Below, piece after piece: positions 53,560 through 64,000 of a DNA stretch of 64,000 nt. Position 1 is the stretch's first letter. Every line of letters starts with the position of its first letter. The notes beneath the pieces are model-generated. The model worked only from the letters and a program-made list of their open reading frames with translations, had not been told where the DNA came from and did no database searches. The stretch spans positions 69,379 to 133,378 of the forward strand of contig JAKAJC010000001.1 of assembly GCA_021814005.1 (NCBI GenBank), given 5' to 3'. The translations under genes were made by a program, and so were the position numbers. This DNA comes from Microcaldota archaeon (lineage in GTDB: Archaea; Micrarchaeota; Micrarchaeia; Anstonellales; Anstonellaceae).

Positions 53560-53598
53560 TGCCGATACAAACAAAAACATCGTATGCTTGGGTGTAAT

Positions 53599-54921
53599 AT
53601 GGACGAGAGCGAAATCAAGGGGCTTGTCGAAACCGGCGAGGGCTACACGCTTGACTTCAAGGAGTCCCTTCCCAACGACTTAGGACGGCACCTCTGCGCC
53701 TTCACCAACGCCTCCGGCGGCAAAATCATCATCGGTGTGCGCGACAACGGCACGCCTTCCGGTTATTCTCCGAACAATGCCGACGAGGCGCGCATCAACT
53801 CCTATGCCCGCAACCTCGACCCTCCCACTCGCGTCCGCGTGGAGCGAGTCGGCCCGTTCGCCGTCATCCACATTCCCGAGGGACCCGACAAGCCCTATTC
53901 CAGCGGCGGGAATTTCTACCTGCGCATCGGTTCTATGTCCCAGCAGCTTCGGCGCGACGAGATACGCGAGTTCTTCCAAAAGGAGAGGCTGCTGCGCTTC
54001 GATGAGAAGCCCAACACCTCGTTTGATTTCCGCTCCGATTTCGACCAGTCCCTCTTCAAGCAATACCTCTCCAGAGCCGGTATCACACCCCTGCCTGACC
54101 AGAAGGACACCTTGCGCAACCTCGATCTCCTAGACGGGCCATATCTGCGCAATGCCGGAGTGCTGCTCTTCACCCCAAGCGTTACCCGTTTCTTCACCAG
54201 CGCCACCCTCCTGTGCGTCCTCTACCAAGGCAACGATAAGGTCACCATCCTGGACCGCAAGGAGTTCCGCGGCGACCTCCTCTCCAACCACGAGAACGCG
54301 CTCACCTATATCCGCTCGAAACTCAACACCAACCTCATTATCAAGGCCGAGCGCACCAACAAGCTTGAACTGCCCGAAGAGGCCCTGCGAGAGGCATTGG
54401 TGAACGCCCTTGCCCACCGCGACTATTTCTCCCCCGGCCATGTGCAGGTGGATATCTATCTCGACCGAGTGGACATCTCCAACCCCGGCGGCCTGGTCTC
54501 GGGCTTGCCGCGCAAGGAGCTGGGTAAGCGCAGTATGCCCCGCAACCCGCTTCTCATGGACCTTTTGCAGCGCATCGACAAGGTGGAGCGGGCCGGCTCG
54601 GGCATCAAGCGCATCCGCGACGCCATGAAGAAGATCGGGCTCAAGCCCCGCTTTGACATCAACGAGGGCTTCTTCTCGGTGGTGTTCCCAAGAAGTACCC
54701 AGACCGCACCCGAAAGTTCCCAGAAAGGTTCCCAGAAGAGTTCCCAGAAGATCCTCGACCTGATCCAAAACAACCCAGGCATAACCATCGAAGAGCTGGC
54801 TTCTAAGATTGGCATCAGCGACCGGGCGGTGAAAAAGCAACTCTCGATTCTGAAGGCACGCGGGAGCCTGAAACGCATCGGGCCGGACAGGGGCGGGCAT
54901 TGGGAGATAGTGCAGGAGTGA
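53599..54921 (+). CDS. AlbA_2/Schlafen-domain ATP-binding regulator with C-terminal wHTH
   Basis: EGYTLDFKESLPNDLGRHLCAFTNASGGKIIIGVRDNG; REALVNALAHRDY; GSGIKRIRDAM; C-terminal HTH. Confidence 0.88.
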   Translation: MDESEIKGLVETGEGYTLDFKESLPNDLGRHLCAFTNASGGKIIIGVRDNGTPSGYSPNNADEARINSYARNLDPPTRVRVERVGPFAVIHIPEGPDKPYSSGGNFYLRIGSMSQQLRRDEIREFFQKERLLRFDEKPNTSFDFRSDFDQSLFKQYLSRAGITPLPDQKDTLRNLDLLDGPYLRNAGVLLFTPSVTRFFTSATLLCVLYQGNDKVTILDRKEFRGDLLSNHENALTYIRSKLNTNLIIKAERTNKLELPEEALREALVNALAHRDYFSPGHVQVDIYLDRVDISNPGGLVSGLPRKELGKRSMPRNPLLMDLLQRIDKVERAGSGIKRIRDAMKKIGLKPRFDINEGFFSVVFPRSTQTAPESSQKGSQKSSQKILDLIQNNPGITIEELASKIGISDRAVKKQLSILKARGSLKRIGPDRGGHWEIVQE

Positions 54922-55181: not shown

Positions 55182-57647
55182 ATGCCTAAAACAGGAAATA
55201 TCAGGCTTTTCGCACCTTCTGAAAAAAAGAGATGGCAAAAATACCTGATAAACATCCAAAAAATATGCAAGGGGCCAGATTGGGAGAAAAAATACTGCAA
55301 GGAATTGAAAAAACACCTCACGGGTTTGTCTCAAACTCAGTTGCAATCATTCAAACAAAAACTCGGTTATCCTAATACAGCTCAATTTGACGATATCCTT
55401 AGGGACAAGAAAAAAGCCATAACTGCTTATTGCTATTGGGTATTCTCTAGAAATTATCGTTCCAGCATAAGCAGATTCCTCAATCTGACGGGGCAAACCG
55501 GGAAAGCTCTTCAAAAAACAGCATTCTTGGGGATTCTAGGATTATCTGACGCCGAACTGGAAGGAATCGTTCTCTTCCAGATATGGAGGAAAACGGCAAT
55601 CTTCGAACGGGACTATTCGTTGCGTGAAGTTACGAATGAACAGATTACGCAAGTGGATAAGAAAGTAAAGTGGCTAGCAGGAACTTTATCGAAGGGAGCG
55701 CATAGGCCTTCCGAAACCGATGATAAAGTTTATCACTTCAAGCAAAAGGGAGTCTATCGGGATTATCGGATCTACTGGTTTCTCAGACAAAAAAGCGATG
55801 AAGAAGAGCCGTCGTGGCCAAACAATCAACGGCAAAAACGGTTTTCGAGCAAAATATTAGCCATCAACCAAACAGGGAAGAAAATACATCTCGTTGTGCA
55901 TAATTCTAAAGAGAGGAAAATTTTTCTTAGATTCCTTCAACGCACGATTAAGCTTGAATTGATGTCAACCCAGAGCGAAACGCCTGTGAATAAAGCACAA
56001 CTACAGAAGCTTTTCGTTCCAGATGAAGCTGACGACACTCTGCCCGTAATCAGCGTGTCCTACAAATATACTAATTTACCTGGAAATCCAAAGCTTATCA
56101 TCCAAGATCGCGCTGGAAAAAACCCTGTAAAGGGCGCGGTCAAAAGACTTACTGAAAACAAAGACATAACCCCAGAAGAAATATCCAACATATCTGCATT
56201 TACTCTTCTTTTCTCAGGTCAGCCAGTCAAAGTCAGAGTTTTCGAGGGTAGATTTGGATACTACAAAATGCAAATCCCTGACAGAAGTCTGGCCTATCAG
56301 GATCGCGAAGGATTAATCTCACAATTTAAACAAAAAACAAACATTCCGATCAACCAATACTTTGAATTTGAAGGTAAACCCATCGAAGTCAAGGAAGCGA
56401 TAAATTCGCTTCTAAACACCCAACTCGTTTCAATAAGCGATGATCCGCCCATATACCGGAAGGTCCTTGAAGTCTTATACCAGATGGGCCTCCTCCATGC
56501 GCCCGAAGAGGAAAACAAGCGATACTGCGTATACAATGGATGCGTGAAGCAATATGCCAATACTTGGCAGAAAGGCACGTGTTCGGAATGCGGGGGGCAA
56601 TTGCACCTATTCGGAGAATACTTCGCAGTGAAGACAGATAAGGCAAAGATTCGAGAACTTATTTCAGACTCACTTATTTTAGAAGGATATTCGGTTGTGC
56701 ACGGAACACGGAAATTCAATAAGAGGAAAACAGACGTTATCGAAGTATATACGCCAAAAGGCAGCGTTGTTGTAGTGCCAGTCAATTCACAAAAAATCGA
56801 CTCAAACCTACTAGAATACTTGAAATTCAACGACGCAGCCGTAGTATTCGCACCATATCCTTACACGAGCGAAACTGACCAAATTCGAGGATATGGGCAT
56901 GGCGTTGTTACTGTGTCTGACCTTATCTACAATAAATTAACCAATTCTAATCAAAAGTTGTTTACGGCTGAAATTGATTCTTGCTTAAATGCAACGCAAA
57001 CCCGTATCGAAAACAACTATCGAAACGCATTGGCCCGGCTTGAACGCACAGGGGATTACGACTTCCATAAATTCGAGGAAGACACATTCTCGCTAGTCCA
57101 CTTCCTTCTGCCGACTTCTCAACGCCTAGGGGATCAGTTCATCGGCAAGCGTGTCCCGGATGGAATAGCGGCAATACCTCTTTCTTCATCCGAGAGATTC
57201 TGCGTCTCATGGGATAGCAAATACTCCACAGCGCAATACGCATTCAGCGAAAAACCTGCGAAATCCGCATACTACATAAAACGGCTGCAACCACTACCAG
57301 TAGTAAAGAATCTAGGTGGACTTGGATCCTTTATCTACATATCCAACAATCTGCCAGAAAAAAGATTCAAGAAATTCGCTAAACGAGTGAAGAGACGGGC
57401 TAGATGGCCAGGTAGAATCATCCTGTTATCTTCTGCACAATTAATGGAATTATGCAAGCACAAAGCATCCGTACAGCAAGTGCTTGCCGCATCTCCCGAG
57501 ATGAATGAAAGTTACTACAAAAAGATAGCTGGATTATTCTCTAAACGCTACCGAAAAATATACGCTATCTCCCCGGCCGAGATTCAGGCAATCACATCTA
57601 GCCAATATACGACACCTGCACTGAGTATAAGCCGCGCAGAAGTCTGA
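55182..57647 (+). CDS. Large protein of unknown family with zinc ribbon and C-terminal PD-(D/E)XK-like motif
   Basis: CVYNGC...CSECGG; GKRVPDGIAAIPLSSSERFCVSWDSKYS (PDG...DSK arrangement as in FokI-like nucleases). Confidence 0.6.
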   Translation: MPKTGNIRLFAPSEKKRWQKYLINIQKICKGPDWEKKYCKELKKHLTGLSQTQLQSFKQKLGYPNTAQFDDILRDKKKAITAYCYWVFSRNYRSSISRFLNLTGQTGKALQKTAFLGILGLSDAELEGIVLFQIWRKTAIFERDYSLREVTNEQITQVDKKVKWLAGTLSKGAHRPSETDDKVYHFKQKGVYRDYRIYWFLRQKSDEEEPSWPNNQRQKRFSSKILAINQTGKKIHLVVHNSKERKIFLRFLQRTIKLELMSTQSETPVNKAQLQKLFVPDEADDTLPVISVSYKYTNLPGNPKLIIQDRAGKNPVKGAVKRLTENKDITPEEISNISAFTLLFSGQPVKVRVFEGRFGYYKMQIPDRSLAYQDREGLISQFKQKTNIPINQYFEFEGKPIEVKEAINSLLNTQLVSISDDPPIYRKVLEVLYQMGLLHAPEEENKRYCVYNGCVKQYANTWQKGTCSECGGQLHLFGEYFAVKTDKAKIRELISDSLILEGYSVVHGTRKFNKRKTDVIEVYTPKGSVVVVPVNSQKIDSNLLEYLKFNDAAVVFAPYPYTSETDQIRGYGHGVVTVSDLIYNKLTNSNQKLFTAEIDSCLNATQTRIENNYRNALARLERTGDYDFHKFEEDTFSLVHFLLPTSQRLGDQFIGKRVPDGIAAIPLSSSERFCVSWDSKYSTAQYAFSEKPAKSAYYIKRLQPLPVVKNLGGLGSFIYISNNLPEKRFKKFAKRVKRRARWPGRIILLSSAQLMELCKHKASVQQVLAASPEMNESYYKKIAGLFSKRYRKIYAISPAEIQAITSSQYTTPALSISRAEV

Positions 57648-57677: not shown

Positions 57678-60431
57678 ATGGAACCAGAGCAGAAAGCCCG
57701 CCGTAAAATTGATAAGATGCTTGAAGCGGCAGGCTGGGTCATCCAAGATTACAAGGATATGGATTTGGGCGCCAGTCTCGGCGTCGTTGTCCGTGAGTAT
57801 CCGCTGAAAGAAGGCCGTGCGGATTATCTCCTCTTTGTGGATCGAAACGTGGTCGGTGTCCTCGAAGCTAAACCTGAAGGCACCACGCTAAGCGTTGTGG
57901 AAGAGCAATCCGAAGGCTATCTCAATAATACACCCGAGAACTTGCCAAACGTCCATTGGCCTCCTCCTTTCGCCTATGAGTCAACAGGGGTAGAAACCCG
58001 CTTTAGGGACAACCGCGATCCAAAACCTCGCTCCCGAAACCTTTTTGCGTTCCACAAGCCTGAAACGCTCTTGGAATGGGTGGAGCAAACTGAAACCCTC
58101 CGCTCTCGCTTGAAGAAATTCCCTCCTCTTCCAAAAGGCAACCTCCGCCAATGCCAGTTCGAGGCCATCAACAAGCTGGAGGAATCTTTAGGGAAGGACA
58201 GGCCAAAAGCCCTAATCCAAATGGCCACGGGAAGCGGCAAGACTTATACTGCCGTAAGTTCCATTTATCGCCTAATCAAATTCGGCAAGGCCAAGCGCGT
58301 TCTCTTCCTCGTGGACCGCAACAATCTGGCCCGCCAAACCCTGCGGGAATTCCAGCAATACGTTCCTCCCGACTCAAACAAGCACTTTACGGACATCTAT
58401 AATGTCCAACACCTCAAATCCAACAAAATCGACCCCGTGGCTAAAGTTTGCATCACTACCATCCAGCGTCTTTATGCCATCCTAAGCGGAAAAGAGATTG
58501 ACGAAGAGATAGAAGAGCATTCGATGTTCGAAAGCGGCGCTTCCGCCAGGACGACCCCCATAACGGTGGATTACAACCCAGCCGTTCCCATCGAAACCTT
58601 TGACTTCATCATCAGCGACGAATGCCACCGCTCCATCTACAATCTCTGGCGGCAGGTTCTGGAATACTACGATTCCTACCTCATCGGCCTTACTGCCACC
58701 CCGTCCTTGCAGACATTGGGCTTCTTCAACAACAATCTGGTGATGGAATACAACCATGAGAAAGCCGTGGCCGATCAAGTCAATGTGCAGCTTGCCGGAG
58801 TCTATCGAATCGAAACCAAGATTTCCAAGCATGGGGATAAGGTAAAGGCTGGGTTCTATGTGGATGTGCGTGACAAATTCACCCGCGAGCGACGCATGGA
58901 GCTTCTGGACAAGGATTTCTCCTATGAGGCCGCCAAGCTCGATCGCTCCGTAGTTTCCCCAAGCCAGCTTCGGACAGTTATCCGAGAATTCAAGAACAAG
59001 CTGAAAACCGAGATATTCCCCGGCCGCGAGCACGTTCCCAAGACACTCGTTTTCACCAAGAACGATGCCCATGCCGAAGACGTGGTGAATATCATCCGCG
59101 AGGAATTCGGAGAGGGCAACGACTTCTGTAAGAAGATTACCTACCGCTCCAACGAGAAGCCCGAGGACATACTTCAAGAGTTCCGAAACTCCTACAACCC
59201 CCGTATCGCCGTCACGGTGGACATGGTGGCCACAGGCACCGACATTAAGCCCCTCGAATGCCTTCTCTTCCTTCGAGATGTCAATTCCAGGCTCTATTTT
59301 GAGCAAATGAAGGGACGTGGCACGCGCACCATCTCCAAAGACGATATGGCTTCGGTAACTCCCGACGCGGGCGACAAGACCTCATTCATTATCGTGGATG
59401 CAGTCGGCGTATGTGAGAAGGATAAAACTGACACCAAGCCACTGGACCGCAAGCCAACCGTTGCCTTCGAGAAATTGGTTTTGGATGTCGCCAAGGGCAT
59501 CCGAGACGAGGACACCATAAGCTCCATAGCCGGCCGTTTGGTCAAGCTGGACCGCAAGATGGAAGGGCCGGAGAAGCAGGAGTTCGTTCGGTTAAGTGGC
59601 GGCAAAGGCGTTTCTGAAGTGGCCGCCCAGCTCCTCGCCGCCAATAGCATCGACAATCAGATGGTAGCCGCCAAAGCCATGTTCAAAACAGATAAGCCGG
59701 ACGAGGCGCAGCTCGCCAAAGCTCGAAAGGAGCTGATAACCAAAGCCTGCCTGCCGCTCGACAAACCTGCACTTCGCAATTACCTCATCGATGTTAAGCG
59801 TGAGAAATACCAGATTATCGACACAGTAAGCCAGGACGTGGTGCTCCGCGCCTCCTTTGATGCTTCGGCTAAGGACAAGGCGCAGGCTATTGTGGGCAAA
59901 TTCAAGGAATTCATCGAAAAGAACAAGAACGAAGTCTCGGCCCTTCAAATCATCTATGGCCGCCCCTATGCTCAGCGGCATTTGACTTACAAACAGATCA
60001 AGGAGCTTGCCGAAGCCATCGCTCGGCCCCCATATTACCTTAATTCAGAAGTCGTCTGGAATGCCTACAAGCAACTCGACAAAAGCCGCGTCCATGATGC
60101 GGGCCCCAAGAGGCTTCTTACAGACATTATCTCGCTCGTTCGTTACACTGTAGGGGAGAGCAATTCGCTCGTGCCCTATACTCAACTGGTGGATTCCCGC
60201 TTCAAAGAGTGGCTTGCAGAGCAGAAAAAAGCAGGCCAGACATACAATGCCGCCCAGATGGAATGGCTTGAGATGATAAAGGCGCACATCGCCGCCTCAG
60301 CCAGCATCGAGATAGACGATTTCGAATATGCCCCATTCGTTGGAAAAGGCGGGGCAGTAAAAGCCAGCAAAGTATTCGGCTCACGCCTCGATTCCATCCT
60401 GAGCGAGCTTAACGAGGCGTTGCCGATATGA
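57678..60431 (+). CDS. hsdR: Type I restriction enzyme R subunit
   Basis: ADYLLFVDRNVVGVLEAK nuclease motif; MATGSGKTYTA; ISDECHRS; helicase C-terminal motifs. Confidence 0.95.
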   Translation: MEPEQKARRKIDKMLEAAGWVIQDYKDMDLGASLGVVVREYPLKEGRADYLLFVDRNVVGVLEAKPEGTTLSVVEEQSEGYLNNTPENLPNVHWPPPFAYESTGVETRFRDNRDPKPRSRNLFAFHKPETLLEWVEQTETLRSRLKKFPPLPKGNLRQCQFEAINKLEESLGKDRPKALIQMATGSGKTYTAVSSIYRLIKFGKAKRVLFLVDRNNLARQTLREFQQYVPPDSNKHFTDIYNVQHLKSNKIDPVAKVCITTIQRLYAILSGKEIDEEIEEHSMFESGASARTTPITVDYNPAVPIETFDFIISDECHRSIYNLWRQVLEYYDSYLIGLTATPSLQTLGFFNNNLVMEYNHEKAVADQVNVQLAGVYRIETKISKHGDKVKAGFYVDVRDKFTRERRMELLDKDFSYEAAKLDRSVVSPSQLRTVIREFKNKLKTEIFPGREHVPKTLVFTKNDAHAEDVVNIIREEFGEGNDFCKKITYRSNEKPEDILQEFRNSYNPRIAVTVDMVATGTDIKPLECLLFLRDVNSRLYFEQMKGRGTRTISKDDMASVTPDAGDKTSFIIVDAVGVCEKDKTDTKPLDRKPTVAFEKLVLDVAKGIRDEDTISSIAGRLVKLDRKMEGPEKQEFVRLSGGKGVSEVAAQLLAANSIDNQMVAAKAMFKTDKPDEAQLAKARKELITKACLPLDKPALRNYLIDVKREKYQIIDTVSQDVVLRASFDASAKDKAQAIVGKFKEFIEKNKNEVSALQIIYGRPYAQRHLTYKQIKELAEAIARPPYYLNSEVVWNAYKQLDKSRVHDAGPKRLLTDIISLVRYTVGESNSLVPYTQLVDSRFKEWLAEQKKAGQTYNAAQMEWLEMIKAHIAASASIEIDDFEYAPFVGKGGAVKASKVFGSRLDSILSELNEALPI

Positions 60432-61135
60432 TCACTTTTCTTAATGGTCTAATTGGACGCTTTCACAAGTACTGGAAGATTCTTTCCAGCAATGCGCTTG
60501 AGTTCATTGCATATTTTGTCTTAGGATTAATTTTCCCATTAGTGGTGTTTTACTTCCTAAGAGATTGGACTCTACCCACTGTCCTCTTTTCGGTCTTCAC
60601 TGGCTTTGGCCTTGGCCGGTTCTTCCAAGAGAAAGAGAAATTGGAGAGATGGCTAGAAGATTTGCGTGTTTTGAAATCCCAAATTGAAGTCTGGACAAAA
60701 GGCTTCAAGACATTGCGCTCTTTTCAAACGATGGAGAACTTTCAATGGGGTCCGCAACTTAGTTGGCTTGATGGGCAATTGAATGGGTATTGGCTAGGAG
60801 ACAAAAAGACATCTGTTTCAAAGACAAGTTTGGAGCCTCATTATTTCGAGAGAGTTGAAATCAGCCGCATAATGGGCGGAATTCAATATATCCCGATGAA
60901 AAACGCCAAATTCCTGCTCGGTTCTTTGAGGTCCATCAATCACAAGATAGACCACCTCAATTTAATCATCCAAATCCTGTATTTACGCAATGATTTAACG
61001 AACGACGAAATGAAGAAAATCGGCTCTGATCTCTGCGGCAGCCCGCTGGCAGTTTGCGAAACGCTGAAAGATGAACTTCCACTAGCGGAAAAGAAGCTTG
61101 CCGAGATTTTAGAAGGTTATGGATACATTGAATAG
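60428..61135 (+). CDS. Membrane-anchored protein of unknown function within the type I RM operon
   Basis: Start overlaps the hsdR stop (ATGA); two N-terminal TM segments, soluble C-terminal domain. Confidence 0.75.
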   Translation: MITFLNGLIGRFHKYWKILSSNALEFIAYFVLGLIFPLVVFYFLRDWTLPTVLFSVFTGFGLGRFFQEKEKLERWLEDLRVLKSQIEVWTKGFKTLRSFQTMENFQWGPQLSWLDGQLNGYWLGDKKTSVSKTSLEPHYFERVEISRIMGGIQYIPMKNAKFLLGSLRSINHKIDHLNLIIQILYLRNDLTNDEMKKIGSDLCGSPLAVCETLKDELPLAEKKLAEILEGYGYIE

Positions 61136-61147
61136 TGATGGGAGAAC

Positions 61148-62563
61148 ATGACTGATAACGAAAAATTGCCGAAAGGGTGGGTTCTTGCCCCTCTCGGAGA
61201 ACTTGCGGAGTATATCAATGGGCGCGCATTCAAACCTACCGAATGGGAGAGAGAAGGAAAACCGATTCTTCGCATTCAAAATCTAACAGGTTCAACCGAT
61301 GAAATCAATCGCTACTCTAAACCTATCGAAGATAAATATCTCATTAAAGACGGACAACTGCTTATCTCTTGGTCTGCAACCCTTGGGGCATTCATATATC
61401 GTGGGGAAGATGCTGTTCTCAACCAGCATATCTTCAAAGTAATTCCATATGTCGATAAGAAGTATTTGTATCATTTAACCAACGCGTATATTGGTTCTCT
61501 AAAATCAAAGGTTCACGGATCGGGGATGCAGCATATTACTAAAGGTTTATTTGATACCTCTCAAGTCCCCCTTGCGCCATCGAACGAACAACTCCGCATA
61601 GTCTCAAAAATTGAAGAACTTGTCTCAGAACTGGACGCAGGTGTTTCATCTCTCCATAAAGCTAAATGCCAAATTAAGATCTATCGCCAATCAGTGCTCA
61701 AATCTGCATTTGATGGAAAGCTTACTGCAAAATGGCGGGAGAAAAACAAAAACAAAATTGAATCAGTAGAAAAAATACTGGCGCGAATAAAGGAAGAACG
61801 GAAGTTACGACTTGGGAAGAGACACAAAGACGTGTTGCCGTTTGATGCTTCAGAGCTACCCAAATTACCGAAGGAGTGGGTTTGGTGTTCGATGAGTGAG
61901 GCATGCGGCGTAATTTCTAACGGAAACACTCCTGAACCATCAAAAATGACTAGGGATTCTGGGGATATTCCGTTCATAAAAGTATACAATCTTACAAAAG
62001 ATGGCCGATTGGATTTCACTGTTAAGCCTACATTTATTGACCGAGAAACGCATAGAAAAGAATTAGCGAAATCGATCACTTACCCTGGCGATATCCTCAT
62101 CAATATCGTCGGACCCCCCTTGGGGAAAGTATCGCTAGTCCCAGATACGTATCCAGAATGGAATACTAATCAGGCAGTTGTCTTGTATCGAGCATCAAAG
62201 AACTTAGAAACACGATTCTTGCTGTTCTATCTATTGTCTAATGATTTGATTCGTTTTCTCACTAAAAAATCAAAAGCCACTGCGGGGCAGTATAATGTTC
62301 AGTTAAGTACTTGTAGAAGCGCACCGCTTCCGTTTGTACCTATCCTCGAACAAAAAGAGATTGTAAGACAGATAGATATCAAGATGAGTGCAATTGAAAG
62401 GACGGAGCAACTTATTGACAAGAATCTCACTATGGCTGAGAATATGCGCCAAAGCATTCTCAAAACCGCATTTGAAGGCAAGCTCGCCCCCCAAGATCCA
62501 AAAGATGAACCAGCGGAAAAACTGCTCGAACGAATTCGAGCTGAAAAATCCAAGAAGAGGTAA
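61148..62563 (+). CDS. hsdS: Type I restriction enzyme specificity subunit
   Basis: Two TRD-like halves starting LPKGWVLAPLGELAEYINGRAF and LPKEWVWCSMSEACGVISNGNTP. Confidence 0.95.
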   Translation: MTDNEKLPKGWVLAPLGELAEYINGRAFKPTEWEREGKPILRIQNLTGSTDEINRYSKPIEDKYLIKDGQLLISWSATLGAFIYRGEDAVLNQHIFKVIPYVDKKYLYHLTNAYIGSLKSKVHGSGMQHITKGLFDTSQVPLAPSNEQLRIVSKIEELVSELDAGVSSLHKAKCQIKIYRQSVLKSAFDGKLTAKWREKNKNKIESVEKILARIKEERKLRLGKRHKDVLPFDASELPKLPKEWVWCSMSEACGVISNGNTPEPSKMTRDSGDIPFIKVYNLTKDGRLDFTVKPTFIDRETHRKELAKSITYPGDILINIVGPPLGKVSLVPDTYPEWNTNQAVVLYRASKNLETRFLLFYLLSNDLIRFLTKKSKATAGQYNVQLSTCRSAPLPFVPILEQKEIVRQIDIKMSAIERTEQLIDKNLTMAENMRQSILKTAFEGKLAPQDPKDEPAEKLLERIRAEKSKKR

Positions 62564-62567
62564 TTTT

Positions 62568-64000
62568 ATGCCTGAATCAAGCTCCATTGTTCAAAAAGTC
62601 TGGAATTACTGCACGGTTCTTCGGGACGATGGTGTTGGTTATGGGGATTATGTCGAGCAACTAACATATCTCATCTTCCTCAAAATGGCACACGAGCAGA
62701 CAAAACCTCCATACAATAAGCCGTCCACGATACCCAAGGGATACGATTGGCTCTCTTTAACCTCAAAAGATGGCGAAGCGTTGGAAGGCCATTATTTGGC
62801 TACCCTAACCGCTTTAGGAAAGGAAAAGGGGATGCTAGGTATCATTTTTGCCAAAGCTCAATCCAAAATCCAAGACCCAGCCAAACTCAAACGCTTAATC
62901 AGCCTGATTGATGATGAGGTCTGGCTCGGATTAGATGTTGATGTAAAGGGGGAAATCTACGAGGGATTGCTCCAAAAGAACGCGGAGGACACCAAGAGCG
63001 GCGCAGGCCAATATTTCACGCCAAGACCATTAATCAAAACTATGGTCGAAGTCATGCAGCCAAAGCCAAATATGAAAATCTGCGACCCGGCCAGCGGAAC
63101 TGGCGGATTCCTTACCTTGACTTACGATTACATAGTCAAGCACAACAATTTAGACAAAGACCAGAAGAAATTCCTCAAGAACGATGCGTTGAGAGGCTAC
63201 GATATTGTCCCTCAAGTCGCTAGGCTCTGCGCCATGAACCTTTTTCTCCACGGTATCGGCTCCGAGCAGTCGCCCATTCAGGTTAGGGATTCTTTGGCCT
63301 CTGACGATGGCGAACGGTTTGATATGGTCTTGACCAATCCGCCTTTTGGGAAGAAGAGCAGTATCACAATCGTAAATGAAGAAGGGAAATCGGACAAGGA
63401 TTCGGTATCATATGAACGCCCTGACTTCTGGACCACCACTTCCAACAAGCAACTGAACTTTGTCCAGCACATCAAGACCATCCTAAAAGTCGGGGGAAGT
63501 GCGGCAGTCGTAGTCCCGGACAACGTATTATTCGAAGGGGGCGCAGGAGAAACCATCCGCAAGAACCTGCTAAAGGACTTCGAGGTTCATACGCTGCTGA
63601 GGCTGCCAACTGGTCTATTCTATGCTCAGGGAGTCAAAGCCAACGTAATCTTCTTTGATAAGAAACAAGCCTCTGAGAGCGCGTGGACGAAAGACCTCTG
63701 GATCTACGATTTGAGGACAAACAAGCATTTCACGCTCAAGGAAAGCTCGATGGGCATGAAGGACTTGGAAGACTTCGTTAAGTGCTACAACCCACAGAAC
63801 CGGCACCAAAGGAAGGAAACCGAGCGTTTCAAGCGCTTCAAATACGAAGATTTGATTAAGCGGGATAAGACCAGCTTGGATATTTTCTGGCTCAAGGATG
63901 ACAGCCTGACGGATTCGGATAACCTGCCGGAGCCGAGCTTAATCGCCGAAGAGATAGTCGAGAACTTGGAAGAGGCATTGGAAAGCTTTAGAGAGATCGA
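62568..64000 (+). CDS. hsdM: Type I restriction enzyme methylase subunit (runs off window end)
   Basis: My translation MPESSSIVQKVWNYCTVLRDDGVGYGDYVEQLTYLIFLKM...SGAGQYFTPRPLI...DPASGTGGFL...VLTNPPFGKKSS; not in the ORF track because no stop is reached. Confidence 0.95.
   Translation, partial: MPESSSIVQKVWNYCTVLRDDGVGYGDYVEQLTYLIFLKMAHEQTKPPYNKPSTIPKGYDWLSLTSKDGEALEGHYLATLTALGKEKGMLGIIFAKAQSKIQDPAKLKRLISLIDDEVWLGLDVDVKGEIYEGLLQKNAEDTKSGAGQYFTPRPLIKTMVEVMQPKPNMKICDPASGTGGFLTLTYDYIVKHNNLDKDQKKFLKNDALRGYDIVPQVARLCAMNLFLHGIGSEQSPIQVRDSLASDDGERFDMVLTNPPFGKKSSITIVNEEGKSDKDSVSYERPDFWTTTSNKQLNFVQHIKTILKVGGSAAVVVPDNVLFEGGAGETIRKNLLKDFEVHTLLRLPTGLFYAQGVKANVIFFDKKQASESAWTKDLWIYDLRTNKHFTLKESSMGMKDLEDFVKCYNPQNRHQRKETERFKRFKYEDLIKRDKTSLDIFWLKDDSLTDSDNLPEPSLIAEEIVENLEEALESFREI

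Follow-up and report, generated by a model that had tools for sequence, protein, structure and literature searches.

What does a gene for a small membrane protein do inside a type I restriction-modification (RM) operon? The question is raised by a locus of a micrarchaeote in which such a gene, here called X, stands among the hsd genes. We analysed a 64,000-nucleotide stretch of contig JAKAJC010000001.1 that carries this locus (hereafter the window) and compared it with other genomes of the phylum, with plasmid and phage collections and with accessory genes described in bacterial type I operons. DPANN archaea have very small cells and probably depend on hosts.

Gene X in the hsd operon

X sits inside a complete operon of hsdR, hsdS and hsdM, all encoded on the same strand (Table 1), with the 3′ end of hsdM lying about 25 nt past the end of the window. 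The stop codon of hsdR is TGA and overlaps the ATG of X by 4 nt (ATGA), while 12 nt separate the stop of X from the start of hsdS, which is preceded by a GGGAGA stretch. The preliminary description had given the coordinates of X and the overlap with hsdR exactly, and its placement of X between hsdR and hsdS agrees with the identities of the Hsd subunits confirmed here by HMM matches. X itself carries none of the Hsd subunit domains in the HMM search and thus is not R, M or S. That X is a real gene follows from a stop-free homologue of similar length, 41% identical, in another genome.

Table 1. Coordinates of the hsd operon, its neighbours and the features of X in the window
Feature	Position	Strand	Remarks
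Schlafen/AlbA_2 + HATPase_c_4 + winged-helix protein	53584..54921	+	near the RM operon
821-aa ORF, unassigned family	55182..57647	+	ends 30 nt before hsdR; GC 42.6%
hsdR, type I restriction/translocation subunit	57678..60431	+	HMM matches EcoEI_R_C, ResIII, HSDR_N
Gene X	60428..61135	+	235-aa membrane protein outside known families; 4-nt overlap (ATGA) with hsdR
TM helix 1 of X, residues about 24-44	60497..60559	+	strongly hydrophobic; 38% identity to the homologue
TM helix 2 and juxtamembrane region of X, residues 47-68, WTLPTVLFSVFTGFGLGRFFQE	60566..60631	+	best-conserved stretch, 17/22 identical
WLDGQL motif of X, residues 113-118	60764..60781	+	identical in X and the homologue
NHKIDHLN motif of X, residues 171-178	60938..60961	+	identical in X and the homologue; within a long helix
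hsdS, specificity subunit	61148..62563	+	HMM match Methylase_S
hsdM, adenine methyltransferase subunit	62568..64000	+	HMM matches N6_Mtase, HsdM_N

The 821-aa ORF upstream possibly belongs to the same operon as hsdR. Its C-terminal third shows, by eye, a PD...D-x-K pattern (VPDGIAA...WDSKYS) that looks PD-(D/E)XK-like and has no Pfam or PDB match. Proteins resembling the Schlafen/AlbA_2-HATPase_c_4 gene product are encoded within type I operons or next to them at loci L059, L062 and L065. Outside the window, two co-directional genes follow close behind hsdM (L079, 13411-16276). The first codes for 212 aa with, by eye, the look of a proteasome-type Ntn hydrolase, and the second, which overlaps it, for 746 aa; neither has a Pfam match.

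Predicted architecture and conservation of X

The initial outline of X as N-terminal TM helices followed by a soluble domain stands, with some refinement: the first helix is clear, the second is weak, and the domain is made of alpha helices only and has no fold that could be recognised. In TM1 the best 19-residue window starts at residue 26 and has a mean hydropathy of 2.53, with a shuffle p of about 0.01; the corresponding value for the homologue is 2.61. TM2 (residues 48-66) reaches 1.24 in X and 1.20 in the homologue, and it is a helix in both AlphaFold models. Positive charge precedes TM1 and follows TM2. Because such charge flanks both ends of the hairpin, the N- and C-termini are predicted to be inside and the all-helical domain to be cytosolic, that is, in the compartment of the Hsd enzyme.

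The AlphaFold2 models, each built from a two-sequence alignment, have a mean pLDDT of 71.5 for X and 64.2 for the homologue. Their helix order agrees. The TM hairpin is followed by a long helix running out of TM2 and by the WLDGQL helix; past a linker modelled with low confidence come the NHKIDHLN helix, a short one and a last one at the C-terminus.

Conservation, compared between these two sequences, peaks in the membrane. Identity is 77% in the TM2 and juxtamembrane stretch, compared with 38% over the whole protein (hypergeometric p about 1e-4; permutation p for the best window 0.008). This argues against a passive anchor and suggests that the membrane part does something specific. It bears directly on the reading of X as a tether, whose helical domain would bind the Hsd complex and keep it at the membrane, the site of entry of foreign DNA. 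A hairpin in the membrane, a helical domain predicted in the cytosol and a start/stop overlap with hsdR or hsdS are what such a role would call for, and a paper that by its title reports a family-dependent localisation of type I enzymes is cited in PMC2481252. However, the membrane part of X is conserved more than the soluble part, which is the opposite of what a passive anchor would show, and the would-be partners diverge greatly between the two systems (HsdR 31% identical, HsdM 45%, HsdS about 24-29% in patches, against 41% for X). Moreover, a close relative of the RM system in the window manages without X. We therefore consider a tether unlikely, although it comes second among the readings.

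No credible family for X was found in Pfam, PADLOC, NCBIfam or PHROGs, and the homologue had no credible match in Pfam or PADLOC. Foldseek searches against PDB and BFVD gave no fold match at E<=0.001; in such searches, helical bundles give weak matches to anything. A tblastn comparison of X and its homologue with plasmid and phage collections returned no match. Scans with degenerate patterns, which use few short peptides and are insensitive, recovered only the known homologue from genome contigs and nothing from viral contigs.

Distribution of X and its association with type I RM

Among 301 genomes of the phylum, X is present in the window genome and in one other, which belongs to the same class: Ca. 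Micrarchaeota CG1_02_55_22, contig MNVH01000031.1 (G136:C58), where the single credible homologue has 227 aa and 41% identity. The other two matches in this set were false, and a profile search of 395 relatives yielded nothing further but false matches. Weak matches in G104 and G153 were rejected as VIT1-like TM proteins, one in G023 as a coiled coil, and one in G192 since its frame contains stops.

The homologue closes an operon of the order hsdR-hsdM-hsdS-X, with ATGA at the hsdS/X junction. The association of X with type I RM thus recurs in an independent locus (L016 of G136) of another gene order and subtype (n = 2), and X adjoins hsdS in both operons. An hsdS match is found in only 20 of 296 Micrarchaeota genomes, so it is improbable by chance that both X genes would lie within hsd operons. 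As the preliminary description had proposed, then, X is linked to type I RM: the one homologue that could be detected likewise belongs to an hsd operon and shares the ATGA coupling, and the scattered, RM-unlinked homologues that would have spoken against the link are not seen among the phylum genomes searched. The linkage is supported by this one independent case. What did not hold is the expectation of a consistent hsdR-X-hsdS-hsdM layout. Not only does the second operon differ, but the closest RM relative found, in G048 (HsdR 50%, HsdM 62%), has the order hsdR-hsdS-hsdM without X, which means that X is no constant subunit of this subtype. It is an optional accessory tied to type I RM, across more than one subtype and position, and probably a swappable add-on to type I restriction defence.

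Because X begins within an hsd stop and recurs with hsd genes irrespective of its position, its synthesis probably keeps pace with that of the Hsd enzyme; the overlap itself is directly visible, the coupling is our reading of it. We also infer that X works with this enzyme or is watched by it. A rival reading is modulation of the RM enzyme, for instance of HsdR/HsdS assembly or turnover (restriction alleviation at the membrane). The overlap, with hsdR in the window and with hsdS in the second operon, would keep X in a fixed ratio to the Hsd subunits, and hsdS borders X in both cases. Yet X matches no protease, adaptor or chaperone family, and a similar gene is absent from most type I systems, which makes a modulator improbable and the last of the readings we weighed.

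The GC content of X is 41.9% in the window and 41.8% in the second genome, against 52-56% for the hsdR genes and 53% for the whole window. This is consistent with separate acquisition, as would be expected if X were a self-contained defence or selfish gene riding in the RM operon in the manner of tgvAB. The changing slot of X, its absence from the closest relative and the frequency of unrelated cargo in such operons point the same way. But the adjoining hsdS is equally low in GC in the window (41.7%; 47.5% in the second genome), so GC alone cannot separate X from the RM genes, and the low-GC block of X and hsdS is consistent with horizontal exchange of that segment. A passenger would also be expected outside hsd operons, where none was found in the phylum sample, and each copy of X overlaps an hsd stop codon. 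We hold an autonomous passenger to be unlikely too, ranking it behind the tether.

Cargo is indeed common. In plasmid relatives of the HsdR from the window, unrelated genes occupy the same intervals: DUF262 in Gemmobacter, HipA-like and HIRAN genes in Rhodococcus, GIY-YIG in Streptomyces, PDDEXK in Haliovirga, and GIY-YIG with AAA in Sphingobium. In the Pusillibacter plasmid operon the R-S and S-M intervals contain two genes each, and the products of three of these four have, judged by eye, a hydrophobic segment at the N-terminus. Micrarchaeota operons also carry cargo, some of it membrane-bound, in the hsdM-hsdS interval (L059), before hsdS (L062) or after it (L076); hhalign probabilities for kinship of the other membrane cargo to X stay below 1%. 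Membrane genes recur among RM cargo, in numbers too small to call an enrichment, and membrane-anchored cargo may be a wider theme.

Small N-terminally hydrophobic proteins unrelated to X are encoded in L059 (8999-10590), L062 (8073-8711), L076 (7163-8320) and L022 (11827-15061), embedded in type I RM operons or adjoining them.

A possible guarded effector and its known counterparts

The leading candidate, unproven and tentatively held, is that X is a membrane-acting effector restrained by the Hsd complex; it ranks before the tether, the autonomous passenger and the RM modulator. As a small membrane protein with a TM hairpin, an all-helical cytosolic domain and both termini inside, X would use this domain to sense the Hsd complex or be restrained by it, probably via HsdS/HsdM. 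If an invader inhibited or overran the complex, following the logic of PrrC, the conserved TM2 region would oligomerise in the membrane or permeabilise it, and this action would stop the infected cell.

We favour this reading because the ATGA overlap occurs in two operons that differ in subtype and in gene order, because the sole homologue among the genomes covered belongs to an hsd operon, X touching hsdS in both cases although few genomes of the phylum have hsdS, and because the conservation of TM2 and the juxtamembrane region is unexpected of a passive anchor. The predicted cytosolic place of the helical domain, the helix order shared by both models and the precedent of PrrC add to it. That X would permeabilise the membrane or be toxic on release is suggested solely by the conservation of TM2. 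Against the reading count the number of sequences, two, which leaves all four readings weak, the weak hydrophobicity of TM2, the lack of any recognisable toxin, nuclease, ATPase or pore family and of a fold match at E<=0.001, and the capacity of other type I-embedded genes, namely tgvAB, for autonomous action (PMC11411939). The further step, that X founds a family of abortive effectors in DPANN archaea which type I RM enzymes guard and which, as the membrane equivalent of PrrC, would fire upon inhibition of the Hsd complex, seems to us doubtful at present.

If X does act with the Hsd enzyme, type I restriction in a DPANN lineage would gain a layer at the membrane, and X would point to a class of RM accessories missing from current defence catalogues. 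If it is only cargo, archaeal type I operons, like bacterial ones, would be docking sites for unrelated genes.

Among known systems, SLATT proteins and other 2TM defence effectors share with X an N-terminal two-TM hairpin followed by helices, but no SLATT Pfam model matches X at E<=1, and viral 2TM proteins give fold matches at chance level (E>1). The HEPN ribonuclease motif Rx4-6H is absent from X and occurs once, in the homologue only.

The tgvAB genes of Vibrio cholerae VPI-2 form a GmrSD-type system and, like X, lie between hsdR and hsdS within a type I operon (PMC11411939). Both encode DUF262 proteins, one of which also has a His-Me nuclease domain. X has neither domain; the DUF262 and DUF1524 domains of GmrSD/TgvAB are absent from it according to Pfam.

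PrrC and RloC are likewise products of accessory genes within type I operons. The type I enzyme holds PrrC, and inhibition of the enzyme releases it (PMC3874165; PMC12707154). PrrC is, however, an anticodon nuclease from a type IC operon, while X, predicted to be membrane-bound, lacks a nuclease domain and an ABC-type ATPase with its Walker A.

In the R-S-M hsd loci of Campylobacter jejuni, rlo and mlo genes fill the hsdR-hsdS and hsdS-hsdM intervals (PMC5183652, PMC4619093), and X is likewise an extra gene in the hsdR-hsdS interval of an R-S-M operon. It differs in being a membrane protein of an archaeon, and the family models searched, among them the Pfam model of DUF262 (RloF), showed no sequence relation between it and any named family. 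It is worth stressing that, with rlo/mlo, prrC and tgvAB as precedents (PMC5183652, PMC4619093, PMC3874165, PMC11411939), an extra gene between hsdR and hsdS is not the exception for which it had first been taken. The protein family of X is new in the sense of being undescribed in the resources searched, and the type of arrangement is already known.
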